DNA from: Pristionchus mayeri
Lineage: Eukaryota; Nematoda; Chromadorea; Rhabditida; Neodiplogasteridae
Reading direction: 5' to 3'
Assembly (NCBI GenBank): GCA_036245805.1
Contig: BTRK01000001.1
Coordinates: 3,968,001 to 4,032,000, forward strand
DNA length: 64,000 nucleotides
Shown here one piece after another: positions 1-62,228 of this stretch (positions are counted from its first letter, which is position 1; every line of letters begins with the position of its first letter). The notes under the pieces are model-generated. The model was not told where the DNA came from, made no database searches, and was given only the letters and a program-made list of their open reading frames with translations. The translations under genes and the position numbers were made by a program.

Positions 1-398
1 TATATTTTCTCACTCAACGTTCATTTATTCACCTGGAGAAGGCTCGCCGAATTTGGTGAAATTGAGGAAATATTGGGGATAGAACTTTTCTATTTCCTGA
101 ATACCTTCTCTCCCTTTCTTCTTATTTGATCAATCGTTTACCTTTTCATTCTCATCTCTTTCAAAATAGTGAATTCCCATCAGGTAGGAGAGATCGTCCG
201 TGTGTCTATTATGAGTCGGCTGGTCGAATGAATACAAGAACGCCTTAGTTTTTTTAGTTCGCTCCTTTCTCCACTTTTATCTGTCTACCTTCCTTTTGTT
301 TTCCATGATCGATCTTGATGTTAGGTATGCACCCACGTACAAGGCCTGTGATTCCGGATGGTGAGTCTGACCTGAAATTACCGTTTCAGGAGAGAACC

Positions 399-518
399 GG
401 CAGTAGGACGGATGATACCCAAACATTGAACAGTATTTTCTCCGAATGTTTTTCGATATCCTACAGGAACCTACTGTGAAACTACTGGGGAACGAATGCT
501 ATCATCCGACCTAGTGTC
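399..518. repeat. CACTAGGTCGG-family hairpin MITE, diverged
   Basis: Ends read GCAGTAGGACGGATGATA and, inverted, TATCATCCGACCTAGTGT. The interior resembles the 34002-34195 copy (CCTACTGTGAAACTACTGG). It lies in a carboxylesterase intron. Confidence 0.6.
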
Positions 519-749
519 AGAAAAACAAAAGGAAAATATCTCACTTGTCTTTCCCGATTCGGTCAGATTATAGTAGAGTTCATCCAATTCTACCAAATTC
601 TTGGCTCCAACGAGAGTTCCTACTTTGGCTCTGAAAACATTCCTAATTATCCGCAAAGAAATGACTCCATTCAATTATAACGGGTCATATTGGCGAGAAA
701 GTACGCTGAAAAGTCATGACTTGCTATTCCGTTGCTAGCTGTAACTTAC

Positions 750-839
750 GGCATTAGGTCGGATGAGAACTATGATGTCTTGTTTCCGTTGATATATCAA
801 AAGTGGCATGACGTCATAGTTCTCATCCGACCTAGTGCC
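750..839. repeat. CACTAGGTCGG-family hairpin MITE, short form
   Basis: A 90 bp inverted repeat: GGCATTAGGTCGGATGAGAA at one end and TTCTCATCCGACCTAGTGCC at the other, with a short loop containing GATATATCAA. It lies in a carboxylesterase intron, a few bases from the donor of exon 848-909. Confidence 0.8.
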
Positions 840-1034
840 CAACTTACCCGTGTGTATACGGAGGGAAGTCCATTTCTTTAGTGGTTGTCCCGATCATAAT
901 GTTCACATTCTGAACAAGCATGTATTTTTTTCGTAATTCGGGTAATAGTGTATTCATTCTATACACTGCTTCGAGTAAAAGAATGAGTGAGAGATGTTTG
1001 CACAAGTGCACGAATGGCTAGTAATTAGCTACAA

Positions 1035-2845
1035 TTATGGGTTCTCTTATTGGAAATGTTTTGTATAATTTTCAGATATGTTTCACGTGTGCTATATGAT
1101 GCGAATCGCAAGAGAATTGACCATTTGAGGGGGGACAGCGGCGGTAGGATTCTAGTTTGCTCGATTCCCCTATAATTTTTTGTGTTAAGTACTTTGAATG
1201 ATGCTCTTTAAAACTGCGTCGTCAGAATTTTGATATCTATCGTCATCTTCGAGATTCAGAAGGCTAAACTTGGAACTATCACTTTCCGACTGTCAAATCG
1301 CGCTCACATAAATGATCATAAAATCGTTTAAAATATAGAAAGAAGGCCGTCCTTTTTTTGAAAAGAAAGCTATCATCATGCTCTACAACTTTAATGATGA
1401 GGTCATCATTCCTGGTCCTCATCCTGGTGCGGCGCGGTCGGGTGAACCAAAAGTGACGTAACTTTTCAAATCGGAAATACCTTCTGGGTTATCATGCTTA
1501 AGTTGTAGTACACATATGTACCTTACTTCACGCCAAAAATGGTCAAAATCGGGAGGTGGAAAAAAAGGGGGCGCACTTTTGTGAGGGGACCCAAAATGAG
1601 TTCCGGAATCGAGTTCTTCCGTACTTTAAATTGCCCTTATTTGTGCTCAAAATCATCGTTAAGCATCCTCAACAACATATAAAATTGTTTCCACGCATAT
1701 CATAACACCTCCATTGGTCATACATGATCACATGACCCAAAATTTGAAAATCGATATTTTGACCCATTTCAACTTGGGGGAGGGCGCTAATGCACGCAAT
1801 GGGTTTCTAATAATGTAGAAATCTCCCTCTAAACTAGTCAGAGATAGGGGGTCTCTATAAATGTGAGTTTTCATACTAGGAATTCAAGAAAAGGCGCAAA
1901 ACAGTACAATGGGTCAAAGTGGTCGTAGAGATCCGGCTTATGGCTAGAAATGTAGAGCACGATGAGTTGAACATCCATCTGTTGAAAGTGAGTCTCTATC
2001 TTTTCGATGAAGCGTGCTACAGAGCCTGGAAATTGGCTAGGAATAGCCTAGAATCCCCCGAGAGCGCGCGCTCTAACCGTCTGGCGCTCTCGCCCTCAGA
2101 CCTCCCACTCCCTCACCTCTATTTAGCGCTCCCTCGCTCGCCTCTTTCGTCGTTTTCTTCCATCATCTAAGCTCTGTAGCAAGGTTCAACGAGAAGATAG
2201 AGACTCACTTTCAACGGATGAAATGTTCAGCTCATTGTGCTCTACTTTTCTACCCATAAGCCGGATCTCTACGACCACTTTGACCCACAGTTTTGCGCCT
2301 GTTCTTGAATTCCTAGTATGAAAACTCACATTTATAGAGACCCCCTATCTCTGACTAGTTTAGAGGGAGATTTTTACATTATTAGAAACCCATTGCGTGC
2401 ATTAGCGCCCTCCCCCAAGTTGAAATGGGTCAAAATATCGATTTTCAAATTTTGGGTCATGTGATCATGTATGACAAATGGAGGTGTTATGATATGCGTG
2501 GAAACAATTTTATATGTTGTTGAGGATGCTTAACGATGATTTTGAGCACAAATAAGGGCAATTTAAAGTACGGAAGAACTCGATTCCGGAACTCATTTTG
2601 GGTCCCCTCACAAAAGTGCGCCCCCTTTAGCCTTCTGAATCTCGAAGATGACGATAGATATCAAAATTCTGACGACGCAGTTTTAAAGAGCATCATTCAA
2701 AGTACTTACCACAAAAAATTATAGGGGAATCGAGCAAACTTCTAATCCTACCGCCGCGCCGTGGTCGATTCTCTCGCGATTCGCCTCATATAGTGCAAGT
2801 GAAACATATCTGCAAATGATACACAAAATTTCCAATAAGATATAT
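1035..2845. repeat. Foldback element (long inverted repeat), about 1.8 kb
   Basis: The two halves are imperfect reverse complements. For example 1251-1266 pairs with 2627-2642 and 1652-1660 with 2532-2540. The shift between these pairs shows about 300 bp present only in the left half, roughly 1270-1560. The inner loop near 2096 is GC-rich with CTCTCGC runs. It lies in the carboxylesterase intron between exons 2863-2955 and 848-909. No transposase was seen. Confidence 0.85.
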
Positions 2846-4797
2846 CTCTCGCAACACAATACCGGAGGGTATTTCATAAGATCCGGAATGGATTTGTAGG
2901 GAAAGAGAGGAGGTCGCAGCAGAACTCCTCCGAAGGTGCCCATATCGTAGCTATCCTGCAAATTAATCAATTATTCAATCAATCAATATTTAACATCGCA
3001 TACAAGATGAGGAGGTGTTTTCTTTGGTAAGTGCTAATTATGGCAGTTCCGTGAAAAATATTGTTCAAGGTTTACCTCGGTTCCGTTAGTCTTATATTTC
3101 GAAACAAGAACTTTATGCAGGAAGATAAACGTTAAATCAAGCCAATTTGGTCACCTCTTCCATCTCTCTCTGAATGGCCAGCAGTTCCTGCCCGCTCTTC
3201 CTCATCATGCAGTCAAGGGTCATTTTCTTCGAGATTTTAGTGCACTGAAAATCCCCTTTTTCATATATTCCATTGACTTCTCAAACATTTGCTCTCTTGA
3301 TCATTTCCTTCGACAGATTCTTGTTATTTTCGGGGTCATCGAAGTAGAACCCTGCGGACATCATTATCAGTTGATGGACGGGGACTTGCCTGAAATCGTT
3401 TCTCGGTAACTGCCAGAGTTCGACATTTGTATGATCCAATGAACATTGTTCATGCTTTCTCGATTTTTTAGTTGTGAGAGATTTCGAAATATATTAATTT
3501 ATTAGCTTGCACTCACAGTTTCCTGACAGGCGAGTATCCCAGCATAATAGACAGAGCTCCACCGAAAGAATGGCCCATCAGAGTAACCGAACCTGAAATA
3601 TCACTAATTGTATGGTCCTTTTGCTATCCTGTCTGTTCAAAAAGGCTCTGAAATCCATGAGTGCCTTATGCGATTTTCGGATACTTTTCTGAGATAAAAT
3701 ACAAAAACCACTGGTTTTAAAAATCAATGGATCTCCAACGTATCATAACAATTCAAACAATATTGCTCCACAAATCGTTCGAATCATTAGATCAAGTGCC
3801 TAGAGTCGAGTCTCCCTATTCCAAGAGTATCATGTTACAGTTACCAGCCGAGGACGAAATCCTAAGAGGTTGTACGCGCTGCCCACGCGTCGCGTGCATG
3901 AGATAGTGTGCAAAAGTGAGAGTGCGCTGGATCAGTCAACTTCAACCTGATCCTTTCCGGCCATCCCCTGGGGCAATTATTGATTTTTGAATATTCTTAC
4001 ACAGATTATTCGGGAATCGTCTTTCCGATGGAAAGTTAATCACAGGGCGTCAAATTTTTCGTCCTCGGCTGGTAACTCTAATCAGAAATTTATGTCTCAC
4101 CCTTATCTCCACCGAATGCTGCAGCTTCCTTGTTGATGTATTTCAGGGCCTGCAGGGCATCTGGAGAACAAAATAATTTGTTTTGATTAATGAAAAATTG
4201 CAGTATTAATTAATTAATAACCTACCGTAAACTCCCAGATTGCTGGGCACGAGTTCCTGGTCGTCTCCCAGTGAGAATTGGCCTGTGAATCCGAGTCGGA
4301 AGGCGGGAATCACGAGCATTACTCCTGAAGGGAATGATGAGAGCGAACGGTGAGAGGCAACTAGACATTTTTTATTCGTAGTGGTGCCATTTTCCCACTT
4401 ATTTTACAATCACTATATGCCTTTCCTATAAAAAAATGAGATGTATCTGCACTAATTTAGAAGTATAGGCAGCAGTAGTGGCACTTCTTTCACTAATTAT
4501 GTAATCACTAGGTCACCAATCGAGCATATTCGCCCTGTTTTGCTAGAGCAACACCAGGATAGGGGTAGGAAAGAGTAAAGAAGATATCTGCATACCGTTG
4601 GCAGCGTAGGTCTCGATGAGTGCAGTATCATTCAAGTACGTCGCCGAGTCGTAATTCATTCCTCCTCCGTCATTTCAACATATTTTTGTTGTTTTTTTAG
4701 GAACCAAAAAACGGAAAACACTGAAAATTGAATCGCTTCTAGCTCATATAATACAAGTGAAGCACAACTGAAAGAAAATCAGAAAAAATGGCGGCTC

Positions 4798-5446
4798 TGT
4801 ACCAATATAAGGGTCCCAAGGTGGATTCTGTACCAATATAGGGGTCCCAAAGGAAGCTGTACTAATATAAGGGTCCCAAGAATTTCTGTACTAGTATAAG
4901 GGTCCCAAAGTAAGATGTACCAGTATAAGGGTCCCAAACAAAATTTCAAATGATGTTATCAATATGTGATATTGCATCTAGCTATGTAACACCGTGTTTC
5001 TGTAGTGTGTAAATGGAGTACAGCTCTGAATTTGTGTTCCCTTCGCAAATTGGCTCAAACTCAACCTACAAGACAATGTCCTTGGCCAGTATTCAATAAA
5101 TGACAGACGTTGAAGATGCAAGGATACAAAAAATGTTATCAAATATCAACGTTGGGAATTTTAAAAGAGTTCGAGCTGGTTCGAATAGCCCAGCCAAGCG
5201 CCTAGCCTTCTAGGATGAGATTGAGACGAATTACGAAAGGAACACACATGCATTTCTTGATTTCCATTAAACACATCTGAAACACGATATTGCATAGTTA
5301 TGATGCAGTATTACAGATTCATGGCAAAATTGTATTTGGGACCCTTATACTGGTAAAGAATACTTTGGGACCCTTATACTGGTACAGAATAGTTTGGGAC
5401 CCTTATATTGGTACAGAAACATTGGGACCCTCATATTGGTACAGAG
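4798..5446. repeat. Foldback with spaced GGGTCCCAA arrays (left arm)
   Basis: Five units of the type TACCAATATAAGGGTCCCAA, separated by variable 5-10 bp spacers, run from 4800 to 4937. Four inverted units (TTGGGACCCTTATATTGGTA) run from 5336 to 5445. Between them is an imperfect inverted repeat centred near 5115. No coding potential is supported. Confidence 0.8.
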
Positions 5447-6778
5447 CCAAAATGGCGCATTACAAATATTTACACTAAACATAACTCCAATTGTTAAAAG
5501 ACTAGAGAAGGGTGCAATTATTTATCGTTTACGACGATTTTGACCTAGTGCCGTTCCAACTTTTTACTTGTTGTTTTGGAAAACAGAGCACAACGAGAAC
5601 TGAAAATGGAATTGCTTCTAGCGCATAAACAATCATTGAATCACAACTGAAAGACTCGTCAAACCAGCAGATTATTGCTCGAAATATTTTTGTTTAAATA
5701 TCGATATTGTGTTCACTGGCCATTGGGAACCGTATGCAACTGTAAATGACCGTCGCTTTGTCCGTGCCCTCATCATCACCTTACAGCTCCTCCAACATCG
5801 TCCTCAGTGCTCAATCCTGCCCTTTCGTTGCCTGACGGCACAGTTCACTCTTCGAGGATGGGCCGGAGGCCCGGTTGGTAAATGTAGTACTGAAATAATA
5901 AATGTAAGAATCACATAATTTAGCATTACGTCACTGTCCATTATCCTTAAAAATAGAGCGAGGCAAGATTTGGAATGTTCACTAAACACCCCACAGGAGA
6001 CCCTCGTCTCCATCGTCCTCTCGGAGTGCAACGCACCGCATGGAGAGACCCCGGCTCGTGGTGCGTCGTGTAGTGTGGTCGATGCAGGGTGCATGGGGTA
6101 GATTTGAATGGAATGTTCGTAGGGGCACGTCCGTTCCGCGCACCACGCCCCTGCGCACGGTTACGGTGGAGAGATTCACCACGATCGACGGAAGGCGTGA
6201 GTGCACTTTAAACTCACTTTGTCCACTTTCTTCAATGCTTTTGTATCAAAAATTTAATCATAATTTTTGTTGAAAGCGAATTTGGCATTACATGAAATAT
6301 GCTCATTAGGTGTGCGCCAGAGAGTGGCCACCCGGATTCCGAGGGAGGCCTGTGAGTTTGTATGTGTATTGGACGAGCAATGCATGATGCACTTGTTCCT
6401 TAAATCCTGAGTTGTAGTAAATGCATGAAGATACGTAATTGTTCTGTCGAACGCGCCTGGGTTTATCAGTAGACATCTCATTGAGCTAAACTGAAAGCCG
6501 ATCATTCTTTTTCCTGAATCCTGAGTTATAGTAGCTGCGCCGCGCGGTATGCCTTCCCCTCGAGAGATGCACTCCCTTCCTCCTTCTCCCTGGTCATCGT
6601 CATCTTCATCTCAGACGACGTGGAGAGCGAGAAGAGATGACAAACCTGCGAGAGCATTTGGAAGCCACACTTGGAGCAGCAAGGGAGGAGAGACTGTGAG
6701 TGTATTTATTCTAGTAGAGCTCCCTTATCAATAATGGACAAGTATCAATTTTGAAATTGCGAAGTGTAATGTAAGTCA

Positions 6779-7028
6779 TTAAAGGAGGAGTAAACTCAAA
6801 ATTCATTTTATGAAGCTATCATATGCACTGCCTAGAGCTCCACAACGATAAGAAGCTCCTAAATTTTTACATTTATATCTCCATTCCGAACAGAGTTATA
6901 GCTAGTTGGCTGGGAGCCAGATCAGGGAAAGCTCAGGGAAGGGGCGAGATAGCACGCGACTTGAAGAGAGTGCGTCCCTAGGTGAAACATATCCCAACCG
7001 GGCGCGTTTGCATTTACTCCTCCTTTAA
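6779..7028. repeat. TTAA-flanked MITE, 250 bp (left arm)
   Basis: Termini are TTAAAGGAGGAGTAAA and TTTACTCCTCCTTTAA, with TTAA at both ends as in piggyBac-type insertions. The interior matches the copies at 21138-21389 and 40477-40726. It lies in the exon 10-11 intron of the truncated gene A copy. Confidence 0.85.
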
Positions 7029-7236
7029 AGAAAACTCAGATCAGAAACATGCTTGTGACTTTCACGACGTTGCCCACAAACTTGGTACTCCTACGCATGA
7101 CAGAAATGACCACATACATTGTAATTGTCTAGTCATCATTTCAGATCAGTCCGGTGCAGCCGGATCATCCACTCGATCGTCACGACCTTCTCGAGTCATT
7201 CACGCCGATTCAGCTTACATGTGAGCTTTCAATTAT

Positions 7237-7414
7237 TATTTTTATGCTAGTGATCGAAGAACTAATGGTCAGATTAGATAACATCTGCGAACTACTTTCC
7301 ACGAAGCATATTTGATTAATTATTTTTATTATTTTTTATGCTAGTGATCGAAGAACTAATGGTTAGATTAGATAACATCTGCGAACTACTTTCCACGAAG
7401 CATAGTTGATTCGT
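7237..7414. repeat. Tandem duplication, two units of about 94 bp
   Basis: The segment beginning TATGCTAGTGATCGAAGAAC occurs at 7243 and again at 7337 with one or two differences. It is mirrored at about 16055-16232 in the right arm. It lies in the exon 11-12 intron. Confidence 0.8.
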
Positions 7415-7732
7415 TCTATGAAAGGCAATCAATCGCGTATAAAAAGGTAACCTGCAAAATAAACATTGTTTCAGCCGCTCCTATCGGCTTTACTACATTA
7501 AAATCGATGTTTCCCTCAATGGATGACATCCTCCTTAGGCCGGTCAGACTCGATCCTGCTCTGGAGAAAATGCTCAATCCCACAAAGGCTAGTTTATGTC
7601 AATAATGGACAAGTATCAATTTTGAAATTGCGAAGTGTAATGTAAGTTTCACTCAACCTGTATTATTCTAGCGCATTCCTTAGTGTTCGATCTTTGGTTG
7701 GCTTCCCCAAATAAAAAAAATAAGAATTGTTG

Positions 7733-8746
7733 ATATGAGGCCGGTCGTGTAAGAATCAAACAATGTCCTTTAGGGGTTGGTACATCGATTTTTCGAAAAC
7801 ATGTTGGAAGAGGTTCTCGAGGGTGCTGATCATCGTGGTGTACTTCGTTTTGCACCATCTCGATCGGTTGAGCCAGGCTGCATGTAGGCTGCACCCACAT
7901 TTCTGATTATAACTCAACAATGGATTCATCTAATGACTTCAAACTTTGAGAATGGTTAAAATAGTCACAGATAACCACAGTGATGTTGAAATCTCATCAT
8001 GCATTATTTTATAAATATATGAAAAATGAGTTCTCGAATATAACTCCGAAACCATTTTCACAAATTAGATAATGAAATGCGCCTAGTCACGGGGATCATT
8101 TTTCTTATACATAGTTGTATATTACACCTAATCATATTTTAGCTACGTACTCATTGCTATCAATTTCTCAACTGTGATTCGCATCTGTTGCCCAAACAAT
8201 GATAAACCCGAATGAGTTTCACTGAGACATGTAAAATTTTTCTCATAATTAAAAGAGAAAAATCACAGAGGGGTAATTATGACTGTGAAACTCATTACAA
8301 ATTTGTCATTCAGCACAATTAGCCCAGTGCAGAGGTAAGAAATTGATCAGTTATGAATGCATAGCAAAAATATGATTAGGTGTAATATACACCTATGTAT
8401 AAGAAAAATGATCCCCGTGACTAAGCGCATTTCACTATATAATTTGTGAAAATGGTTTCGGACTTATATTCGAGAACTCATTTTTCATATATTTATAAAA
8501 TAATGCATGATGAGATTTCAACATCAGTGTGGTCATCTGTGACTATTTTAACCATTCTCCAAGTTTGAAGTCATTAGATGAATCCGTTGTTGAGTTATAA
8601 TCAGAAATGTAGGTGCAGCCTACATGCAGCCTGGCTCAACCGATCGAGATGGTGCAAAATGAAGTACACCACGATGAACCTCTTCCAGCATGTTTTCGAA
8701 AAATTGATGTGCCAGACCTTGTTTGATACTTAGGCGACCAGCCTCA
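7733..8746. repeat. Foldback element, GAGGCCGGT family (left arm)
   Basis: An imperfect inverted repeat of about 1 kb centred near 8240. The ends read ATGAGGCCGGTCG and, inverted, CGACCAGCCTCAAT. Subterminal TTTTCGAAAAATTGATGT and GGTTGAGCCAGGCTGCATG blocks occur in both halves. The ends are related to the element at 52563-53600 in gene B. It lies in the exon 12-13 intron. Confidence 0.85.
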
Positions 8747-8932
8747 ATACCTAGGTGAAATCCCCAACTACGTTTGCCTCTCATAATCTGTGCATTGCTA
8801 ATCGATGAATTCCAAATGGTGATTCTGAATTTAAAAAAAAAAGTTAAATATCAGATCGAGCCGATTCTCCGTTATCGTCGACATGCGGACAACTTCGTGA
8901 GGGTCGTCGAGCATCTGGCGAGGTGGGAATCG

Positions 8933-9009
8933 TCTGACTCTCTGCAATGTTCATACTCTCTCCCTTTATCTAATCTGCGAGAGAGTGTGGAAAAAGAAGA
9001 GAGTCAGAA
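8933..9009. repeat. GACTCTCTTCATT-type hairpin (left arm)
   Basis: TCTGACTCTCTGCAATGTTC and GAGAGTGTGGAAAAAGAAGA followed by GAGTCAGA form a stem of about 30 bp immediately after exon 13. Gene B has a member of the same family at the matching position (52187-52262). Confidence 0.7.
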
Positions 9010-9364
9010 TTCTGCTCCAAACACGAGGGACTAGTTATATAACACCAATACACTCAATATTGTACGATGCCCCTCCTTACAATTTACGTGTTAGTTATGA
9101 TGATTGGCTCCAGGTCTTCCTCGAAAATCGATGTGGGTACTGTGGAAGATATGGAGGAAGAAAACATGAGAGTGAAGAGGGAATACGACTTCTACGATGA
9201 GGTTTATATTTATTTTCCCTATGAGTGCGATGCAAATTGATATTGATTTGTTTCGAGATTTCAAGAACCATTGGTAAAACATATTTGAACTACGATACAC
9301 AGCCTATCAGGATGGATGAAACGGCTCATTTTCGTGGCGGACGAGGTCTTTCTTTGTTCGCTCT

Positions 9365-10972
9365 CTTAAGAGACCATCCACGAGAAAACGGGGAGGGGTC
9401 ACGGATGGTCAAATTATGAATAATTCCAATACTTTTTTCCTGATGTGTCCATCCAAAGTTAGGGTGGCAGGCACCAATAGCTAACCAAAAACTAAGTCGA
9501 TTTTGAAAAAGCTACAGTAACCCCTCATTTTGGAGGTCGAAAAAATTGATATCTCAAAAGTACGAGATTTATACATTTTCTGATGTATTTTCACTCGTAG
9601 ATAACGGATTTCAAGGTGAAAATGTCATATGGTTCGATATTAAAAAGGTAGAGCCAAAAAATCGATTTTGTCGGCCAAAATTGGGAAAAATGGTTACATA
9701 GAAAATTTGGTTGATGAAACGGGGAGCTGCCATTCACATTTTCTGATTCTACATGTCTTTTTGAGCATGTGATTTTTATCAGAATTTTAAAAATGGCCCA
9801 TTTCGCCCAAATTGCAGCCCGAACTTGACGCTTTGGTGAAATTTGGGAAAAAATCAAGAAATTTTTGAATGAGAATTCCGTTTATAGCTTTCAATCACCT
9901 TCAAATTTTGCACAAGAGTCATTCTGCACCACATAAATATATTTCATAGCAAAAATAGTCAAAAAGAAAAAAATTGGAATTCCGATTTTTTCGCCTTTTT
10001 AGGGTAATTTTTAGGGTCGAAAAAAATGATCTCTCAAAAGTCCGACATTTATATATTTTCCGGTGTATTTTCACTCGTAGAAAACGAATTTTAAGGTTAA
10101 AACTGCAAAACAAGCTAACTAAAAAAGTTTTGCTCGAAAAACTGTATTTGTCGCCCAAAATCGGCATATATCGTTACGAAAAAATATGAAGTTGGTGATG
10201 GGGAGAAAGGTGTTTCACATTTTCAGAATCAACGTCTCTTTTTGAGTATATTTGAGTTTTTTCCAGAGTTTCAAACAAGAACCATCCTTACCAAATGTCG
10301 GTCCGAACAAGAAGCTATTTCGAAATTTCGACTGAAAAAATCGAAATTTCAATATTTGTGTATTGTGACAATTTTTGTTTTTAAATATGTATATTTGCTC
10401 CAGAATGACTCTTCTGCAAAATTTGAAGGTGATTGAAGGCTGTAAACGGAATCTACATTCAAAAATTTCATGACTTTTTCGCCAAATTTCACCAAAGCGT
10501 CAAGTTCGGGCTGCAATTTGGTCGAAATGGGCCATTTTTAAAATTCTGAAAAAAATCACATATGCTCAAAAAGACATGTAGAATCAGAAAATGTGAATGG
10601 CAGCTCCCCGTGTCATCAACCAAATTTTATATGTAACGATTTATCCCAATTTTGGCCGACCAAATCGATTTTTTGGCTCTACCTTTTTAATATCGAACCA
10701 TATGACATTTTCACCTTGAAATTCGTTATCTACGAGTGAAAATACATCAGAAAATGTATAAATCTCGTACTTTTGAGATATCAATTGTTTCGACCCCCAA
10801 AATGAGGGGTTACTGTAGCTTTTTCAAAATCGACTTAGAACCTTAGCTATTGGTGCCTGCCACCCTAACTTTGGATGGACACTTCAGGAAAAAAGTATGG
10901 GAATTATTCATAATTTGACCATCCGTGACCCTTGCCCCATTGATCCGTTTTCTCATGGATGGTCTCTTAATT
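9365..10972. repeat. Foldback element, 1.6 kb (left arm)
   Basis: Outer ends pair TAAGAGACCATCCACGAG with CTCATGGATGGTCTCTTA. Pairing continues inward through TGGCAGGCACCAATAGCTA, CTACAGTAACCCCTCATTTT and TATCGAACCATATGACATTT, centred near 10168. The two halves differ at many positions, so the element is older than the giant palindrome. The open frames inside are by-products of the repeat. Confidence 0.9.
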
Positions 10973-11168
10973 CCTTCTCATTCATTTCTTTCTCACAATT
11001 CCCTCCGGACAGTCAGACGAAGGATGTAAAGAGTCAAATTTCCTTGATGAATCATAATCATTTTTTCAGTTTTAAAGATCCCTAAAAAGAAAAATTTTTC
11101 GAATTCGCTCCATCGACATGAACCGCAATTTCTAGCGCGCAATTTCAAATAGTGCACGCTATGATACT

Positions 11169-12300
11169 GATCGAGTGCAGGAGGGGTGGTGCACAAGGTA
11201 CGTATTTTAGGGTCATGGTCGATAATTGTGTCACGGTAGGTCAAGACTAAGTACTGTACCAATCGATAATACAGTGCTCCCAGATACCGTATGCCGCTAC
11301 CGTAACCCGGAATATCACGAACTAACTTTTTTTCCAAAAAGTCAATATACCGTACTCCATCGATCGTACAGTACCCATACCGTAACCATGTGTACAGTAC
11401 CACTTACTACCGTAATCCACACCACTGCGGTCAATCGTAAACTGACTTTTTTTCAAAAACATTTTCCATTGAGTTGATTCTTGCTCTATACCGTATCCAA
11501 TCGATAGTACAGTACCCCCAGATACCGTATACCACTACCGTAATCCCGATTATTGAAAACTAACTTTATTTTTAAAAAGCCCTGGTACCGTGCGCAATCG
11601 ATTATACAGTACACAAGTAACTACCGTAACCCAGTTCATTGGGTCAGATCCAGTTCCTTGGGTCAAACATTTTTCTAAATATTTCAAACATTCTTCTAAA
11701 AATTCAAAATTGAGCATATACTAATTATACAATAATCACATATACGGTAGGATGCTTTAAAATAATTTTTAAATCGATTTGGGATTTTTAGAAAAATGTT
11801 TGACCCAAGGAACTGGATCTGACCCAATGAACTGGGTTACGGTAGTTACTTGTGTACTGTATAATCGATTGCGCACGGTACCAGGGCTTTTTAAAAATAA
11901 AGTTAGTTTTCAATAATCGGGATTACGGTAGTGGTATACGGTATCTGGGGGTACTGTACTATCGATTGGATACGGTATAGAGCAAGAATCAACTCAATGG
12001 AAAATGTTTTTGAAAAAAAGTCAGTTTACGATTGACCGCAGTGGTGTGGATTACGGTAGTAAGTGGTACTGTACACATGGTTACGGTATGGGTCCTGTAG
12101 GATCTATGGAGTACAATATATTGACTTTTTGAAAATAAAGTTAGTTCGTGATATTCTGGGTTACGGTAGCGGCATACGGTATCTGGGAGCACTGTATTAT
12201 TGATTGGTACAGTACTTAGTCTTGACCTACCATGACACAATTATCGACCTTGACCCTAAAATACGTACCTTGTGCACCACCCCTCCTGCACTCGATCTAC
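11169..12300. repeat. Central foldback element (palindrome centre), CTACCGTAAC-rich
   Basis: Both halves contain repeated CTACCGTAAC/GTTACGGTAG, ATCGAT and ACTTTATTTTTAAAAAG blocks and the pair TTCATTGGGTCAGATCCAGT / ACTGGATCTGACCCAATGAA around a loop of about 60 bp near 11742. Unlike the flanking arms the halves differ: a 3 bp indel near 11169/12300 and scattered substitutions. The same element type occurs at 58299-59010. Confidence 0.85.
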
Positions 12301-12496
12301 AGTATCATAGCGTGCACTATTTGAAATTGCGCGCTAGAAATTGCGGTTCATGTCGATGGAGCGAATTCGAAAAATTTTTCTTTTTAGGGATCTTTAAAAC
12401 TGAAAAAATGATTATGATTCATCAAGGAAATTTGACTCTTTACATCCTTCGTCTGACTGTCCGGAGGGAATTGTGAGAAAGAAATGAATGAGAAGG

Positions 12497-14104
12497 AATT
12501 AAGAGACCATCCATGAGAAAACGGATCAATGGGGCAAGGGTCACGGATGGTCAAATTATGAATAATTCCCATACTTTTTTCCTGAAGTGTCCATCCAAAG
12601 TTAGGGTGGCAGGCACCAATAGCTAAGGTTCTAAGTCGATTTTGAAAAAGCTACAGTAACCCCTCATTTTGGGGGTCGAAACAATTGATATCTCAAAAGT
12701 ACGAGATTTATACATTTTCTGATGTATTTTCACTCGTAGATAACGAATTTCAAGGTGAAAATGTCATATGGTTCGATATTAAAAAGGTAGAGCCAAAAAA
12801 TCGATTTGGTCGGCCAAAATTGGGATAAATCGTTACATATAAAATTTGGTTGATGACACGGGGAGCTGCCATTCACATTTTCTGATTCTACATGTCTTTT
12901 TGAGCATATGTGATTTTTTTCAGAATTTTAAAAATGGCCCATTTCGACCAAATTGCAGCCCGAACTTGACGCTTTGGTGAAATTTGGCGAAAAAGTCATG
13001 AAATTTTTGAATGTAGATTCCGTTTACAGCCTTCAATCACCTTCAAATTTTGCAGAAGAGTCATTCTGGAGCAAATATACATATTTAAAAACAAAAATTG
13101 TCACAATACACAAATATTGAAATTTCGATTTTTTCAGTCGAAATTTCGAAATAGCTTCTTGTTCGGACCGACATTTGGTAAGGATGGTTCTTGTTTGAAA
13201 CTCTGGAAAAAACTCAAATATACTCAAAAAGAGACGTTGATTCTGAAAATGTGAAACACCTTTCTCCCCATCACCAACTTCATATTTTTTCGTAACGATA
13301 TATGCCGATTTTGGGCGACAAATACAGTTTTTCGAGCAAAACTTTTTTAGTTAGCTTGTTTTGCAGTTTTAACCTTAAAATTCGTTTTCTACGAGTGAAA
13401 ATACACCGGAAAATATATAAATGTCGGACTTTTGAGAGATCATTTTTTTCGACCCTAAAAATTACCCTAAAAAGGCGAAAAAATCGGAATTCCAATTTTT
13501 TTCTTTTTGACTATTTTTGCTATGAAATATATTTATGTGGTGCAGAATGACTCTTGTGCAAAATTTGAAGGTGATTGAAAGCTATAAACGGAATTCTCAT
13601 TCAAAAATTTCTTGATTTTTTCCCAAATTTCACCAAAGCGTCAAGTTCGGGCTGCAATTTGGGCGAAATGGGCCATTTTTAAAATTCTGATAAAAATCAC
13701 ATGCTCAAAAAGACATGTAGAATCAGAAAATGTGAATGGCAGCTCCCCGTTTCATCAACCAAATTTTCTATGTAACCATTTTTCCCAATTTTGGCCGACA
13801 AAATCGATTTTTTGGCTCTACCTTTTTAATATCGAACCATATGACATTTTCACCTTGAAATCCGTTATCTACGAGTGAAAATACATCAGAAAATGTATAA
13901 ATCTCGTACTTTTGAGATATCAATTTTTTCGACCTCCAAAATGAGGGGTTACTGTAGCTTTTTCAAAATCGACTTAGTTTTTGGTTAGCTATTGGTGCCT
14001 GCCACCCTAACTTTGGATGGACACATCAGGAAAAAAGTATTGGAATTATTCATAATTTGACCATCCGTGACCCCTCCCCGTTTTCTCGTGGATGGTCTCT
14101 TAAG
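12497..14104. repeat. Foldback element, 1.6 kb (right-arm mirror of 9365-10972)
   Basis: Exact reverse complement of the left-arm element. It lies just downstream of the last recognised exon of gene A. Confidence 0.9.
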
Positions 14105-14228
14105 AGAGCGAACAAAGAAAGACCTCGTCCGCCACGAAAATGAGCCGTTTCATCCATCCTGATAGGCTGTGTATCGTAGTTCAAATATGTTTTACCAATG
14201 GTTCTTGAAATCTCGAAACAAATCAATA

Positions 14229-17200
14229 TCAATTTGCATCGCACTCATAGGGAAAATAAATATAAACCTCATCGTAGAAGTCGTATTCCCTCTTCACTCT
14301 CATGTTTTCTTCCTCCATATCTTCCACAGTACCCACATCGATTTTCGAGGAAGACCTGGAGCCAATCATCATAACTAACACGTAAATTGTAAGGAGGGGC
14401 ATCGTACAATATTGAGTGTATTGGTGTTATATAACTAGTCCCTCGTGTTTGGAGCAGAATTCTGACTCTCTTCTTTTTCCACACTCTCTCGCAGATTAGA
14501 TAAAGGGAGAGAGTATGAACATTGCAGAGAGTCAGACGATTCCCACCTCGCCAGATGCTCGACGACCCTCACGAAGTTGTCCGCATGTCGACGATAACGG
14601 AGAATCGGCTCGATCTGATATTTAACTTTTTTTTTTAAATTCAGAATCACCATTTGGAATTCATCGATTAGCAATGCACAGATTATGAGAGGCAAACGTA
14701 GTTGGGGATTTCACCTAGGTATTGAGGCTGGTCGCCTAAGTATCAAACAAGGTCTGGCACATCAATTTTTCGAAAACATGCTGGAAGAGGTTCATCGTGG
14801 TGTACTTCATTTTGCACCATCTCGATCGGTTGAGCCAGGCTGCATGTAGGCTGCACCTACATTTCTGATTATAACTCAACAACGGATTCATCTAATGACT
14901 TCAAACTTGGAGAATGGTTAAAATAGTCACAGATGACCACACTGATGTTGAAATCTCATCATGCATTATTTTATAAATATATGAAAAATGAGTTCTCGAA
15001 TATAAGTCCGAAACCATTTTCACAAATTATATAGTGAAATGCGCTTAGTCACGGGGATCATTTTTCTTATACATAGGTGTATATTACACCTAATCATATT
15101 TTTGCTATGCATTCATAACTGATCAATTTCTTACCTCTGCACTGGGCTAATTGTGCTGAATGACAAATTTGTAATGAGTTTCACAGTCATAATTACCCCT
15201 CTGTGATTTTTCTCTTTTAATTATGAGAAAAATTTTACATGTCTCAGTGAAACTCATTCGGGTTTATCATTGTTTGGGCAACAGATGCGAATCACAGTTG
15301 AGAAATTGATAGCAATGAGTACGTAGCTAAAATATGATTAGGTGTAATATACAACTATGTATAAGAAAAATGATCCCCGTGACTAGGCGCATTTCATTAT
15401 CTAATTTGTGAAAATGGTTTCGGAGTTATATTCGAGAACTCATTTTTCATATATTTATAAAATAATGCATGATGAGATTTCAACATCACTGTGGTTATCT
15501 GTGACTATTTTAACCATTCTCAAAGTTTGAAGTCATTAGATGAATCCATTGTTGAGTTATAATCAGAAATGTGGGTGCAGCCTACATGCAGCCTGGCTCA
15601 ACCGATCGAGATGGTGCAAAACGAAGTACACCACGATGATCAGCACCCTCGAGAACCTCTTCCAACATGTTTTCGAAAAATCGATGTACCAACCCCTAAA
15701 GGACATTGTTTGATTCTTACACGACCGGCCTCATATCAACAATTCTTATTTTTTTTATTTGGGGAAGCCAACCAAAGATCGAACACTAAGGAATGCGCTA
15801 GAATAATACAGGTTGAGTGAAACTTACATTACACTTCGCAATTTCAAAATTGATACTTGTCCATTATTGACATAAACTAGCCTTTGTGGGATTGAGCATT
15901 TTCTCCAGAGCAGGATCGAGTCTGACCGGCCTAAGGAGGATGTCATCCATTGAGGGAAACATCGATTTTAATGTAGTAAAGCCGATAGGAGCGGCTGAAA
16001 CAATGTTTATTTTGCAGGTTACCTTTTTATACGCGATTGATTGCCTTTCATAGAACGAATCAACTATGCTTCGTGGAAAGTAGTTCGCAGATGTTATCTA
16101 ATCTAACCATTAGTTCTTCGATCACTAGCATAAAAAATAATAAAAATAATTAATCAAATATGCTTCGTGGAAAGTAGTTCGCAGATGTTATCTAATCTGA
16201 CCATTAGTTCTTCGATCACTAGCATAAAAATAATAATTGAAAGCTCACATGTAAGCTGAATCGGCGTGAATGACTCGAGAAGGTCGTGACGATCGAGTGG
16301 ATGATCCGGCTGCACCGGACTGATCTGAAATGATGACTAGACAATTACAATGTATGTGGTCATTTCTGTCATGCGTAGGAGTACCAAGTTTGTGGGCAAC
16401 GTCGTGAAAGTCACAAGCATGTTTCTGATCTGAGTTTTCTTTAAAGGAGGAGTAAATGCAAACGCGCCCGGTTGGGATATGTTTCACCTAGGGACGCACT
16501 CTCTTCAAGTCGCGTGCTATCTCGCCCCTTCCCTGAGCTTTCCCTGATCTGGCTCCCAGCCAACTAGCTATAACTCTGTTCGGAATGGAGATATAAATGT
16601 AAAAATTTAGGAGCTTCTTATCGTTGTGGAGCTCTAGGCAGTGCATATGATAGCTTCATAAAATGAATTTTGAGTTTACTCCTCCTTTAATGACTTACAT
16701 TACACTTCGCAATTTCAAAATTGATACTTGTCCATTATTGATAAGGGAGCTCTACTAGAATAAATACACTCACAGTCTCTCCTCCCTTGCTGCTCCAAGT
16801 GTGGCTTCCAAATGCTCTCGCAGGTTTGTCATCTCTTCTCGCTCTCCACGTCGTCTGAGATGAAGATGACGATGACCAGGGAGAAGGAGGAAGGGAGTGC
16901 ATCTCTCGAGGGGAAGGCATACCGCGCGGCGCAGCTACTATAACTCAGGATTCAGGAAAAAGAATGATCGGCTTTCAGTTTAGCTCAATGAGATGTCTAC
17001 TGATAAACCCAGGCGCGTTCGACAGAACAATTACGTATCTTCATGCATTTACTACAACTCAGGATTTAAGGAACAAGTGCATCATGCATTGCTCGTCCAA
17101 TACACATACAAACTCACAGGCCTCCCTCGGAATCCGGGTGGCCACTCTCTGGCGCACACCTAATGAGCATATTTCATGTAATGCCAAATTCGCTTTCAAC

Positions 17201-20200
17201 AAAAATTATGATTAAATTTTTGATACAAAAGCATTGAAGAAAGTGGACAAAGTGAGTTTAAAGTGCACTCACGCCTTCCGTCGATCGTGGTGAATCTCTC
17301 CACCGTAACCGTGCGCAGGGGCGTGGTGCGCGGAACGGACGTGCCCCTACGAACATTCCATTCAAATCTACCCCATGCACCCTGCATCGACCACACTACA
17401 CGACGCACCACGAGCCGGGGTCTCTCCATGCGGTGCGTTGCACTCCGAGAGGACGATGGAGACGAGGGTCTCCTGTGGGGTGTTTAGTGAACATTCCAAA
17501 TCTTGCCTCGCTCTATTTTTAAGGATAATGGACAGTGACGTAATGCTAAATTATGTGATTCTTACATTTATTATTTCAGTACTACATTTACCAACCGGGC
17601 CTCCGGCCCATCCTCGAAGAGTGAACTGTGCCGTCAGGCAACGAAAGGGCAGGATTGAGCACTGAGGACGATGTTGGAGGAGCTGTAAGGTGATGATGAG
17701 GGCACGGACAAAGCGACGGTCATTTACAGTTGCATACGGTTCCCAATGGCCAGTGAACACAATATCGATATTTAAACAAAAATATTTCGAGCAATAATCT
17801 GCTGGTTTGACGAGTCTTTCAGTTGTGATTCAATGATTGTTTATGCGCTAGAAGCAATTCCATTTTCAGTTCTCGTTGTGCTCTGTTTTCCAAAACAACA
17901 AGTAAAAAGTTGGAACGGCACTAGGTCAAAATCGTCGTAAACGATAAATAATTGCACCCTTCTCTAGTCTTTTAACAATTGGAGTTATGTTTAGTGTAAA
18001 TATTTGTAATGCGCCATTTTGGCTCTGTACCAATATGAGGGTCCCAATGTTTCTGTACCAATATAAGGGTCCCAAACTATTCTGTACCAGTATAAGGGTC
18101 CCAAAGTATTCTTTACCAGTATAAGGGTCCCAAATACAATTTTGCCATGAATCTGTAATACTGCATCATAACTATGCAATATCGTGTTTCAGATGTGTTT
18201 AATGGAAATCAAGAAATGCATGTGTGTTCCTTTCGTAATTCGTCTCAATCTCATCCTAGAAGGCTAGGCGCTTGGCTGGGCTATTCGAACCAGCTCGAAC
18301 TCTTTTAAAATTCCCAACGTTGATATTTGATAACATTTTTTGTATCCTTGCATCTTCAACGTCTGTCATTTATTGAATACTGGCCAAGGACATTGTCTTG
18401 TAGGTTGAGTTTGAGCCAATTTGCGAAGGGAACACAAATTCAGAGCTGTACTCCATTTACACACTACAGAAACACGGTGTTACATAGCTAGATGCAATAT
18501 CACATATTGATAACATCATTTGAAATTTTGTTTGGGACCCTTATACTGGTACATCTTACTTTGGGACCCTTATACTAGTACAGAAATTCTTGGGACCCTT
18601 ATATTAGTACAGCTTCCTTTGGGACCCCTATATTGGTACAGAATCCACCTTGGGACCCTTATATTGGTACAGAGCCGCCATTTTTTCTGATTTTCTTTCA
18701 GTTGTGCTTCACTTGTATTATATGAGCTAGAAGCGATTCAATTTTCAGTGTTTTCCGTTTTTTGGTTCCTAAAAAAACAACAAAAATATGTTGAAATGGA
18801 TTCGGAAAGGGACTATGTAAGTCGGAATATCACTGTCGAAAGAGAACCAATAATTGTAAATAGAATGAAATTTTATTTTTGTTTACACCTCATTAAATTG
18901 TGTTTCATTTCTACTTTATGTGCTAGATGCAACTCAAATTTCAATTCATAGACTCCAATTTCAATTCGCGACCAAAAAAAGAAAAATATGAATGAGACTA
19001 AATCGGATGACCATTGTCGAATGATAGCTACAAAATATACCCTTCTCTAGAATTTTCGCAATTTTGTTGTCTATTTTTTTTCATTATTAGGTGAAAAATA
19101 TTTTCTGGTTTGGAGAGTAATTCAATTGTGTTTCACGATTATTTTACATACTCAAAACAATTATTCATTAGATTAGCAGTGACATCTGGAGTTAGAACGC
19201 TGTCTCCCTAAGATCGGAGCATAGGGTGGCACAATGCTTTAAAATTATCGCTAGGAGTTCAAACTTTGGTGGTAGAGTCCTTATGGGCAAAGAAAATTTT
19301 TCCAGAAACTTTGACCTACCATTTGCATATTTTTCAAAAACTGTCATTTTTTATATTGACTCATTGTGTTATATACCATTCGAAAGAACATCAAAAGTTA
19401 TGTTAGAATCCAAATTTGCGAAGGAATTGATCAACATCTGTTCTTGAAACATGATAATATGTGAGGAAAAACAGCAATTTGAAATTTCGATAGTTCAGGA
19501 GAACATGTTCCAATCATTTCTTATTTCTGAAAATAGTGCTCTAGATGTAAAATGATATAAGGAATTCAGAAAAAAATATGACGAGGACGAACGAGGTGCC
19601 ACAAATTGACTTTTTCTCAAAAAACCGATATAGTACTTAAACGCAGGATCGATTCCTCCGAATGTATACATTTTTGCAGGCATTCATTATACACACTTTG
19701 ATTCAGAATCTGCTTTCAGAAATTTCATATTATCGAATTGGAAGCATATTAGAAGTAGAAAATTGCGCGGAAGATGCTTGCAAAAATGTATGCATTCAGG
19801 AGGAATCGAACCTGCGTTTAAGTACAGTATCGGTTTTTTGAGAAAAACTCAATTTGTGGCACCTCGCTCGTCCTCGGCATATTTTTTTCTGAATTCCTTA
19901 TATCATTTTACATCTAGAGCACTATTTTCAGAAATAAAAAATGATTGGAACATGTTCTCCTGAACTATAGAAATTTCAAATTGATGTTTTTCCTCACATA
20001 ATGGCATGTTTCAAGAACAGATGTTGATCAATTCCTGCGCAAATTTGGATTCTAACATAACTTTTGATGCTCTTTCGAATGGTATATAATACAGGGGGTC
20101 AATTTCAAAAATGACAGTTTTTGAAAAATATGCAAATGGTAGGTAAAAATTTCTGGAAAAGTTTTATTTGACCATAAGGACTCTACCACCAAAGTTTGAA

Positions 20201-47500: not shown

Positions 47501-50500
47501 ACTCAGCTACGACCTTAAACCTTTTCTAAACCAATCACCTATAGAGCGATATCGACGTGGAATTGTTAGCTCTACATGATGCACTTAGAATTTAGGCTTG
47601 ATTATTCAAATGTAAACAGTAGCACTTTAAATTTGCCAATTTTTGATCGATTTGCCTACTCAAAGAACGTTTTTTTTCGGTCATGGGAAATGATCGAGGT
47701 AATATGTTTTCGTAGATGTCTTGGCAAACCCATTTGCAAGACTTCCTCCAGACAGAATTTCGATTTTTTTATGTGTTGCTGCGTTGCATGATATATTGTG
47801 AACCTATTCTAGTTTGAGCTGAATTAAAAATTTAACATAACTTAATTTCTAAAATGTCAATCGTATTCATGCTTCAATAGGAGGCTGATACAAGTGATAC
47901 CTATCGATCGGTATTGTTTTAGTGTTTTTAGTATTTTTTAGAGCAAGTTATGGTCATTCAAACATTATCATTTCTTCCCTCTCATTGACCGCTCTACGCT
48001 CCGCGAGTAATTGGAAAGGGAGCGCCGCGACGAACAAAGGAACTCGATCGCTCTGACACGCTGTGCAACAGAACAATTGATTCCGATTCAAATTCATTTC
48101 TCTTCAATGGCTATTGAAGCGTATTACAAGATATGAAAGAAACGGGAGTTGATAATATAAGTTGATGGTTAAATGTGCTATCCAGAATGTGAAATTCGAA
48201 TCACCTTCTCATCATTTTATACACTCTCTAGGCTTTTCTAGTTGGAACAAAATACGTATAATGCTTGATCCTGGTATCTTCCCTCTCACAACGATATGTT
48301 TCATGATATACATTTGAAAGGTCGGGACAGAGATCGACAGAGATCACTCACCTCTGAGAAAAAAAAATAAAATGACCAAATTCAATGAATGGGGAAGGTG
48401 TTTTACCCCGAATCTGATCTTCAGAACATGTTGAATGCAAAAACAAAATGTTTCTAACTCTCATGAAATTTAGGCCGAAAACCTAAAGAACGATCAGACG
48501 ATTGGCAACCTAAATCTGGCGGCGCAAGTACTCGCTGATAAAAAGCTGAGACACAGTGTCGGCGAGTAAGTGATTCGAGCAATTCTATGGCTTTCCTCAT
48601 TCTCATCAGTCAGAGCGACCGGTAGAGTGCATAGAATGAAGAGATAATTGATTTTTTCACTCTTTCGTGAATCTAATTTGTTATCGCCTGCCGTGTGAAG
48701 ACACACATTCTTATGATTATTTTACTAATTAATTAATTACAGAAACCCCGAGGCGATCAATGCAGTATGCATGGACTCGGGCATAGACTCGTCGAGGTGA
48801 GTGGACAATCCAATTGTATCAATTTGGCGCACCGAACAGTTGTATCGAATCCAACTTTGTGGCAAGTTACGCGCGTGTAGAAGCATTGCTAGACTACATC
48901 AATCTTACTGTTCATCACTTTATCCAAGCTGACTTGGAATTCTTCCTCTGAGAGTTTAAAGTTGGTAGAGAATGAGATACCGCAATGATCAGATTCAGTT
49001 TAATGATGTCGATTTTAATGACGTCATTTCATATTTTCATTCAGATGCGGCACGTTCACCCGCGGCTTCCAGATGATCTCCAAGCTGATCAATTCCATTG
49101 AGGAACCGATCGACAGAATGAAACAAAGGATGCCCGCACGTTCGTGTTTTCTGATCCTACATCTATTAACATCATTATGAACATATTTCGGCCGATTATT
49201 TGATTGATTGTATATTTTCGAAGCCCAGTACGACCATGAAATTGAAAAAAACAACAAATTCAAGAAATGTAGTGAATGTGAAACACAACTCCGCATCAAT
49301 CATATTTAAAGAAAATTAAGGATTTATCGTGGGCGAGAGCATTTCGGTTCGAATTGAGAGGTTATAGTTACGATCTTTCAGCTCCTCCAATGGAGTCCTC
49401 CGTCCTCAACCCTTCCCTTTCGATACCCGATGCATCAGGCATGCAGACGGTACCTTCTGCGAGGATGGACCAGCTGCCCGGTAGGTCACCGCTGAAAGCC
49501 CTTGTTTTTATCCCATTTGTCTATCCTCGAGAAAATACCAGATTGCATGATGAATTGTTGAAAAACCCTTACCAGAATTGGAATGTCAAATTAAAAAAGG
49601 GTTCCCACGAGTCTCGCGGACAACAAACTGGCACCATGGGGTTATAGAGGCCGCTTTTCCGATCAGAAATCAATTGGTTTTAAGTTAAATAAATGTCTAC
49701 AAATTGCAAAATTAATTTCCAAGGTTAATTGAAAATGCAGGCAAATTTAAAATACTGTAGGCATTCTAGCCATTGATTGAGAAAACGGCCGCTGGATTCG
49801 GAAAAGACGGAATTTCGTGATGCACGCAGCGTTACACCACGTTGTTTAGCATGGGGTTTTCTTCGTTATTATTGAATTTAATGGATTTTTAATGTGAACA
49901 CCTGGAATGTGCGATATAGTGTTATGCAATTTACATAAAAAATATATTCGAATTAGGCAAACTGTGCGTTGCGCAGAATTTAGCGAAAACCACCGTACAG
50001 TGCTCATCATGCAGTACCGTCGTTGTGAGAGTACATGATTCTGTTTCATGGGAACCCTTTTTTAAGGTTATCGCTAATTTCTGTCTAGTCTTCCTTCTTT
50101 CGAGCACACCATTCACCTTGACGTTGACTGTTAGTTTATTGCATGAGATCACACCCGTGCAAACAACAAATTGTGCACCTCTCTTGTTGGTTTGGAATGG
50201 GAATGTTCACTACTGTGCACGACGGAGATGAGCGCTCTCTTCGTTTCACGCACTTTCTAGACAGATCCGCAAGAGATCATGGGGAATGGAGCGACACGAA
50301 AATGTAATGTTCACTTTGCACCCCGCAGGCGGTCCACGGTTCCATCGTCCCCTCGGCGTGCAGCGAACCGTGTGGAGAGGCCCCGATTCGTGGTGCGTCG
50401 TGTAGTGTTGACGGTGCAGGGTGCATGGTGCAGGTTCCCATTTGCATGGAATGTTCACAGGGGCACGTCCGTCATGCGCACCACTCCCCTGCGCACGGTT

Positions 50501-61174: not shown

Positions 61175-61217
61175 TTGACCGTTTACGTTTTCACAGTTGT
61201 ACTACGATTGTTATTGT

Positions 61218-61223
61218 AATAAA
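61218..61223 (+). terminator. Polyadenylation signal AATAAA of the THAP-like gene
   Basis: Canonical hexamer 44 nt after the stop at 61174. Confidence 0.7.
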
Positions 61224-62109: not shown

Positions 62110-62228
62110 CTGAGTGCGTGAGACGTTCGTGAGAACCCGTGAGGCCGCACTTCCACCAGCCGAGAGGCCCCCAGGCACTGCAAGGTTACGGTGAATCGTT
62201 GTTGGCATGGTGCCAAGAAGGGATAGAT

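Follow-up and report, generated by a model that had tools for sequence, protein, structure and literature searches.

Abutting giant palindromes in Pristionchus mayeri, each centred on a foldback transposon-like element, as the probable product of a hairpin-capped chromosome break

Two giant palindromes that abut to the base in Pristionchus mayeri, each centred on a near-twin of the same foldback transposon-like element (hereafter c), are probably best explained by a break at a single c, both ends of which would have been capped by a hairpin, copied back over their own flanks and then fused. The locus was studied from a 64,000-nucleotide stretch of contig BTRK01000001.1 (GCA_036245805.1, positions 3,968,001 to 4,032,000; hereafter the window), to which plain coordinates refer, those beginning with C1 to C6 being genomic. 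Such a naturally occurring arrangement, with a single element capping the two sides of a break and the resulting pieces reunited, would be informative on the origin and resolution of hairpin-capped breaks beyond engineered microbes and tumours, and in particular on two routes: one cap is left when the break falls beside a repeat, two when a cruciform is cleaved. Should the small samples prove representative of how common such scars are, the frequency of germline breakage by transposon hairpins and the rate at which giant palindromes are lost could be measured from age series and from comparisons among strains.

Structure of the locus

The palindrome that an earlier note had placed at 4671-18798 is present in the assembly, with two arms of 6,499 nt (4671-11169 and 12300-18798) that are 100% complementary; the coordinate sum of 23469 given there also holds, base i pairing with base 23469-i with zero mismatches from 4671 to 11169. 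A match of this length and identity cannot have arisen by chance. An inverted-repeat search places the arms 1,130 nt apart, and the short loop described earlier does exist, but it measures just 107 bp (11680-11786), as the remainder of the 1,130 nt is inverted-symmetric too. The symmetry continues inward through a stretch of approximately 205 bp that holds all of the differences (a 3-bp indel and 11 substitutions), followed by approximately 305 bp of identical sequence and then the true loop. Three repeats are nested within the arms, all on the plus strand in their left-hand copies: a foldback repeat of 29-bp tandem units (4793-5448, mirrored at 18021-18676; the A-family of our counts), a dispersed inverted-repeat element (7733-8746, mirrored at 14723-15736), and a foldback element of approximately 1.6 kb (9366-10970, mirrored at 12499-14103; the C-family of our counts).

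The outer junction with unique DNA that had been proposed at 4671 proved to be of another kind, base 4670 being the last base of a second palindrome. This palindrome 1, located with a k-mer inverted-repeat finder, occupies C1:3956947-3972670 and has arms of 7,808 bp, which differ from each other by 3 substitutions and 1 indel and enclose a 107-bp loop; it lies mostly to the left of the window, which consequently displays half of a double structure. Palindromes 1 and 2 adjoin exactly, at C1:3972670/3972671, and no N occurs in the 144 kb surrounding the locus. The order of blocks is L/A-c1-A'/B-c2-B'/R, where c1 and c2 are the central elements and slashes mark the outer ends and the joint J (4670/4671), which is blunt, with 0 bp of microhomology on either side. 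A', the right arm of palindrome 1 (its last 4,670 bp at 1-4670, minus strand), would be an inverted copy of A; B (4671-11071, minus strand) would likewise be an inverted copy of B' (12398-18798, plus strand), to which its 6,401 bp outside the element are identical.

The copied flanks contain 0 substitutions over 7,199 bp in palindrome 1 and 6,401 bp in palindrome 2, and the sole difference between A and A' outside c is one C11/C12 run. This lack of substitutions across 13.6 kb of arm outside both central elements supports the suggestion, also made in the earlier note, of a very recent rearrangement, and gene conversion is not needed to account for the identity of the arms. Pfam scans of B and its diverged relative (50-52 kb of the window), covering ten open frames, found no match above the cut-off.

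Native flanks

An esterase exon is open and unbroken across L/A. The carboxylesterase family PF00135 matches an exon piece in L (2.9e-12); it also matches the exon piece spanning L/A once the piece that follows in A is joined to it (1.6e-9), and this second match begins within the 11 residues to the left of the joint. A', by comparison, carries the carboxylesterase gene inverted and in truncated form, broken off in mid-exon at 4670. At the other end, R (18799-19220, plus strand), the presumptive native continuation of B', contains at 18825-19088 a diverged tandem-repeat relative of B' 17755-18004, such that a degenerate repeat runs across B'/R; the similarity score of 94 compares with a maximum of 55 in 60 shuffles and with 31-48 in six other comparisons. 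In each palindrome, then, one arm appears native and the other a copy, as judged from the exon at L/A and the repeat similarity between B' and R. Because the exon is continuous at L/A and the repeat at B'/R, A'/B is probably the only new joint, and the ancestral order is likely to have been L-A-c-B'-R.

The central foldback element

The central element of palindrome 2, c2 (11072-12397, plus strand), is 1,326 bp long, with arms of approximately 600 bp and TTAA at both ends; c1, at the centre of palindrome 1 (C1:3964146-3965470), is 1,325 bp. The two are 99% identical and in the same orientation, down to the sequence and orientation of their loops, and as both retain both ends, each side of the presumed break carries the whole repeat. 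Other copies of the family are at most 90% identical among the best 40 of 2009 candidates, and unlike flanks were found in 18 of the 20 copies fetched from elsewhere; that c1 and c2 are closer to each other than to these best copies is expected if they derive from one element. As single-stranded DNA, c2 is predicted to form one near-full-length hairpin (-752 kcal/mol, a value that stands without a shuffled control at such length).

The arms of c are older than their surroundings. Those of c2 differ by 11 substitutions and the 3-bp indel and those of c1 by 3 substitutions, against 0 in the copied flanks, which indicates that the central inverted repeat pre-existed. At the six outermost variable arm columns (approximately three mutational events), c1 left equals c1 right and c2 left equals c2 right, while c1 differs from c2, as predicted if the outer arms of c1 both represent the left arm of a parent element and those of c2 its right arm. 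Taken together, the variants in the four arms fit a single parent element that would have been folded back on both sides. The switch from own-arm to partner-arm type falls between sites 84 and 94 in c2, and c1 is compatible with it only if a repair patch covers sites 94-298, where c1 right is of the left-arm type; at sites 539-557, c1 left is the sole arm that differs. These two stretches count against the explanation favored here: to account for both of them, fold-back or cruciform cleavage in its simple form needs an extra step, either hairpin mismatch repair or later mutation.

Proposed origin and alternatives

The sequence of events would have begun with one c in the native order L-A-c-B'-R. 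A break at c, presumably in the germline, would have left a hairpin of c on each of the two ends, either because c extruded a cruciform that was then cleaved or because resection allowed c to anneal back on itself. The ends so capped would then have been copied back over their flanks, one over 7.2 kb of A and the other over 6.4 kb of B', to yield A-c-A' and B-c-B', and blunt joining of the copied ends at 4670/4671 would have produced the present order. If the break was an ordinary one beside c, fold-back accounts for one capped end only, and the length of both copied stretches (6-7 kb) is unaccounted for by the model.

The structure might instead be an artefact, in which c snapped back in vitro during whole-genome amplification and the assembler strung together chimaeric A-c-A' and B-c-B' molecules from a true L-A-c-B'-R locus. 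We regard this as unlikely. The effectively 100% identity of the arms, with the single C-run difference outside c, would suit such an origin, as would palindrome lengths of 14-16 kb, which approach those of typical long reads, and an inverted repeat of approximately 600 bp would make an ideal snap-back primer. However, A'/B contains neither homology nor N, a joint that an assembler does not normally make unless reads cross it; moreover, seven other near-identical palindromes aligned here differ by approximately 0.5-6.4 substitutions per kb outside their inner 500 bp, a range that would not result from a library artefact. An artefact would have to account both for a double structure that is coherent and free of gaps and for the older, diverged palindromes found elsewhere in the genome.

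Replicative template switching is well known, and the same block order would result if one fork had passed through A and c, turned back along A, jumped to B'/R, returned through c and then resumed its forward course. Under this route, however, the loops of c1 and c2 should lie in opposite orientations; as the observed orientation is the same, a later loop flip by inter-arm recombination must be added, and we consider serial switching improbable. Two independent fold-backs at two native copies of c, with ends that touch by coincidence, are more improbable still: palindromes at other loci do occur without a visible twin, yet the abutment here is exact to the base, c1 and c2 are far closer mutually than to any copy listed, and the outer flanks A and B' are unlike, as they would be on either side of one insertion bounded by TTAA.

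Origin-dependent inverted-repeat amplification (ODIRA), which generates inverted triplications in yeast, resembles the locus in that its joints are centred on inverted repeats and lie inside the chromosome without distal loss, but it requires two inverted repeats around an origin and results in three copies, whereas the locus has one element and two copies (PMC4689423). Formation of a dog-bone molecule c1-A'B-c2 followed by its re-insertion would place inverted repeats at both centres with A'B between them, as found, yet it needs a native A'/B, while exon continuity places the native joint at L/A, and the expected triplication is at odds with blocks that were found twice; such an origin is very hard to credit. 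Although long, identical inverted arms could suggest a giant transposon with 6.5-kb terminal inverted repeats, this idea deserves next to no credence, as no other match among those listed (the best 40 candidates per search) reaches 4671 or 18798, the rest lying in dispersed repeats inside the arms, and the outer ends show no sign of a target duplication.

Relation to known systems

The hairpin-capped, two-sided break that we favor belongs to a mechanism class that is already known, although a two-sided and rejoined product seems unusual. Fold-back inversions or inverted duplications arising via hairpin-capped ends have reportedly been found in humans in one study. In yeast, they have been described from hairpin-capped ends (PMC10622511; PMC7467729), by a course of fold-back, flap trimming and fill-in that leads to a hairpin-capped chromosome (PMC10622511). 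Such events resemble the locus in having a pre-existing central inverted repeat, a flank copied back and an inner repeat older than the arms, but the products in the portions of these reports available involve one side only, the outcome being translocation, telomere capture or centromere loss, whereas here both sides of the break seem to have been retained and rejoined inside the chromosome. Events of this class are also expected to become more frequent when hairpin opening of the Mre11/Sae2 type is lost.

Cruciform cleavage leaves two hairpin-capped ends, each of which replicates into an inverted duplication (PMC3315005), and as at c, one inverted repeat caps both ends of the break (inverted Alu repeats in yeast; PMC3315005; PMC7999016). 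Insofar as these accounts extend, evidence for that process comes from nuclease mutants and from palindromes that had been inserted; at the present locus, it is deduced from the scar left around a naturally occurring foldback element with TTAA on each side. Long inverted repeats in Caenorhabditis are likewise near-identical and nuclear, but the available part of that report presents them as old, spanning orthologous genes and kept similar by an active process (PMC1803023), whereas the arms described here appear to be of recent origin and surround a transposon-like element.

Palindromes elsewhere in the genome

The earlier view that such palindromes are rare in nuclear genomes seems not to hold in this one: near-identical palindromes hold 7 of the 71 other repeat loci checked, or about one in ten, the loci coming from three repeat families met along the way rather than chosen at random. 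Their recurrence and mostly greater age argue against a pure artefact. The others that were looked at appear single, the double form being known from one locus. More broadly, and tentatively, the genome may keep a record of cruciform-type germline breaks at foldback transposons, with both capped ends copied and rejoined at the present locus and similar one-sided palindromes forming continually, then shrinking or decaying. On that reading, foldback transposons would continue to generate inverted duplications of several kilobases, among them truncated copies of genes.

The alignment set comprised nine palindromes, namely the two at the locus and seven others, five of which total 1.8-6.6 kb and could be spanned by one long read; a minisatellite-flanked palindrome at C5:17.457 Mb was excluded, as its repeats are not cleanly alignable. 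The older-centre pattern is missing in three of the nine (C3:18.96 Mb, C5:12.86 Mb and C1:3.14 Mb), and a search of the 1,180-bp spacer at C5:12.86 Mb found no inner inverted repeat. A central excess of differences is present in the remaining six (both palindromes at the locus, C6:15.46 Mb, C5:15.43 Mb, C6:13.06 Mb and 60.7 kb of the window), the last three of which also diverge toward their outer ends. Across all nine, longer arms go with lower divergence (rho -0.86).

Two abutting palindromes around one kind of foldback element

The earlier note had claimed a 14.1-kb palindrome with indistinguishable arms at window 4671-18798, and this claim is correct: base i compared with base 23469-i gives 0 mismatches over 4671-11169, and a repeat search returns arms of 6,499 nt, 100% complementary and separated by 1,130 nt. 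The window spans C1:3968001-4032000 of the assembly (290.8 Mb, 73 contigs). A k-mer inverted-repeat search over a 144-kb block (the window and 40 kb on each side, with 0 N) also found a neighboring palindrome 1, C1:3956947-3964754 versus C1:3964862-3972670, with 7,808-bp arms, a 107-bp loop, and 3 substitutions and 1 indel between the arms. Its final base is window 4670, immediately preceding palindrome 2; as the window includes no more of it than the terminal 4,670 bp of its right arm, it was invisible to the earlier reader. Palindrome 2 is half of a larger structure, written L/A c1 A'/B c2 B'/R, in which L and R are the outer flanks, A and A' the arms of palindrome 1, B and B' those of palindrome 2, and A'/B the joint J (window 4670/4671).

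At the two centers lie c1 (C1:3964146-3965470) and c2 (window 11072-12397), foldback elements of ~1.33 kb each with TTAAAGATCC ends, which are 99% identical and in the same orientation; the remaining members of their family are at most 90% identical among the matches listed (best 40 of 2009 candidates). Insertions of piggyBac-like elements typically have TTAA at each end, and single-stranded c2 is predicted to fold as one long hairpin.

One probable new joint

A carboxylesterase gene is present across L and A: an exon piece in L matches PF00135 (2.9e-12), the following piece is open (no stop) through L/A with 11 residues left of the joint, and this piece, scored jointly with the subsequent piece in A, matches PF00135 at 1.6e-9 from residue 3. 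The copy in A' is broken off at J, within the exon that spans L/A. Because this exon is open through L/A and cut in A' at J, L/A is native and A'/B is not. On the far side, R bases 27-290 align to B' with a score of 94 (maximum of 60 shuffles of R, 55; six other comparisons, 31-48), and this excess suggests that B'/R is crossed by a degenerate tandem repeat. The end of A' against the start of B scores 27, under the best of 50 shuffles (43), and no microhomology at J was found on either side. All the joint evidence is accounted for by one native order, L-A-c-B'-R, plus a single new joint. Near the esterase gene, L also contains a 291-aa open frame for a mariner-like transposase (PF01359, PF17906; C1:3953993-3954865).

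Mosaic and age of the arms

The four arms of c1 and c2 form a mosaic. Six variable columns lie outermost (arm positions 2-84) and represent about three mutational events; in all six, c1 left equals c1 right, c2 left equals c2 right, and c1 differs from c2, as expected if the outer arms of c1 came from the left arm of a parent element and those of c2 from its right arm. At positions 94-298 c2 right alone differs (11 substitutions and a 3-bp indel), and at 539-557 c1 left alone differs (3 sites). The pattern in c2 is directly accounted for by a switch somewhere from position 84 to 94, next to the 3-bp indel. To account for c1 right at 94-298, and for one of c2 left and c1 left at 539-557, either mismatch repair within a hairpin stem or later mutation has to be invoked. 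The mosaic is good evidence for one parent element, and it is only suggestive as a pointer to the exact route.

Outside c, A and A' show 0 substitutions in 7,199 bp (one C11/C12 run differs), and B and B' show 0 in 6,401 bp. Nematode-like mutation rates are ~3e-9 per site and generation; if such a rate holds here, the arms are no more than tens of thousands of generations old, and gene conversion could give them a younger look than their true age.

Palindromes elsewhere in the genome

For the A-family, a nested foldback repeat with 29-bp tandem units, the best 40 of 99 candidates scored correspond to 36 loci with inverted pairs counted once; four of these, this locus among them, are equal-scoring inverted pairs <15 kb apart, each confirmed by sequence as a palindrome. 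The C-family, a nested ~1.6-kb foldback element, gives 18 matches of at least 1200 bits outside this locus (16 loci, two palindromic). Among relatives of c, 20 of the 38 other loci among the listed matches were sampled, each with ~500 bp of flank: at 18 the inverted similarity ends at or within the element ends and the flanks are unlike, as for ordinary insertions, and at two (C1:3.14 Mb and C5:17.457 Mb) it extends into the flanks. At C1:3.14 Mb it clearly extends ~230 bp past the element (arms 99.6% identical), and at C5:17457016-17459721 the element has an array of a ~33-bp minisatellite on each side, the two arrays being mutually inverted. Apart from this locus, 7 of 71 loci are thus palindromes (A-family 3/35, C-family 2/16, c-family 2/20), which is no genome-wide rate, the families being no random choice and represented by their best-scoring copies only.

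Nine palindromes were aligned: both of those here, that at window 60.7 kb, and all of the seven counted above except C5:17.457 Mb. Beyond the inner 500 bp, the two palindromes of this locus each have 0 substitutions per kb, against ~0.5-6.4 per kb in the seven others; divergence is lower with longer arms (Spearman -0.86, p = 0.003, n = 9), and differences are in excess near the center in 6/9. No abutting twin with the same center was seen at the other palindromes examined, some with short flanks.

The near-identical palindrome at the right edge (window 59723-64000, on to C1:4034512) has arms of 1,886 bp (99.4%) and 423 bp (99.3%), a 1.6-kb spacer, and an internal 83-bp tandem array (62202-62568). 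Further complexity is hinted at by C6:15475653-15477466, an inverted repeat with ~0.8-kb arms (96.9%) overlapping the right end of a 16.7-kb palindrome (C6:15459674-15476403), and by C3:18957172-18968267, where a ~10.1-kb palindrome is followed at the next base (C3:18967301) by a 967-bp stretch that repeats a portion of the left arm in inverted orientation.

Mechanism and rival explanations

The structure is best explained so far by a hairpin-capped break at c, both ends of which would have been copied back and then joined at J. Passages of PMC3315005 describe a cruciform cut across the four-way junction, giving two hairpin-capped ends whose replication yields inverted duplications, and report E. 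coli data that, for an interrupted palindrome, speak for degradation and hairpin formation rather than cruciform cleavage; in an account within PMC10622511, resected inverted repeats anneal by fold-back, flap trimming and fill-in follow, and the hairpin-capped chromosome replicates, with related routes outlined in parts of PMC6103520 and PMC7467729. After cruciform cleavage c would sit on both ends; after an ordinary break next to it, on just one. The two-sided structure therefore favors cruciform cleavage, or else a break in each of the two sister chromatids.

In-vitro snap-back at c, which would make the structure an artefact, is the serious rival, but an unlikely one given that J is blunt and without a gap, that native flanks are consistent on both sides, and that a series of diverged palindromes exists elsewhere in the genome. 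A single polymerase walk is disfavored, as it would place the c1 and c2 loops in opposite orientation and they share the same one.

Among the PMC papers listed (titles and abstract starts; most subscription journals and bioRxiv lie outside), no description was found of a rejoined two-sided fold-back scar or of genome-wide foldback-centered palindromes in nematodes, an absence that is weak evidence of novelty. Sections of a nematode chromosome review (PMC9071541) name palindromes just for transgene arrays and DNA-elimination motifs; passages of PMC1803023 describe inverted repeats in Caenorhabditis that are old and that an active mechanism keeps in their inverted arrangement; and PMC13155455, which considers spacers of <=8 bp only, places mismatch-free arms of thousands of bases almost exclusively in bacteria.

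Other repeats

Window 50303-52709 is a diverged relative of B sequence 5971-9007, in the same orientation, ~44 kb apart, and with ~80-87% identity in most matching pieces; no Pfam domain scored above cut-off in the frames tested there. Two A-family copies of equal score lie in direct orientation 10.9 kb apart (C6:42832555 and C6:42843445), suggesting a recent tandem duplication. Finally, C20:17669-19282 is a counterpart, of equal score, to C3:39194877-39196490 and is perhaps an unplaced second haplotype.
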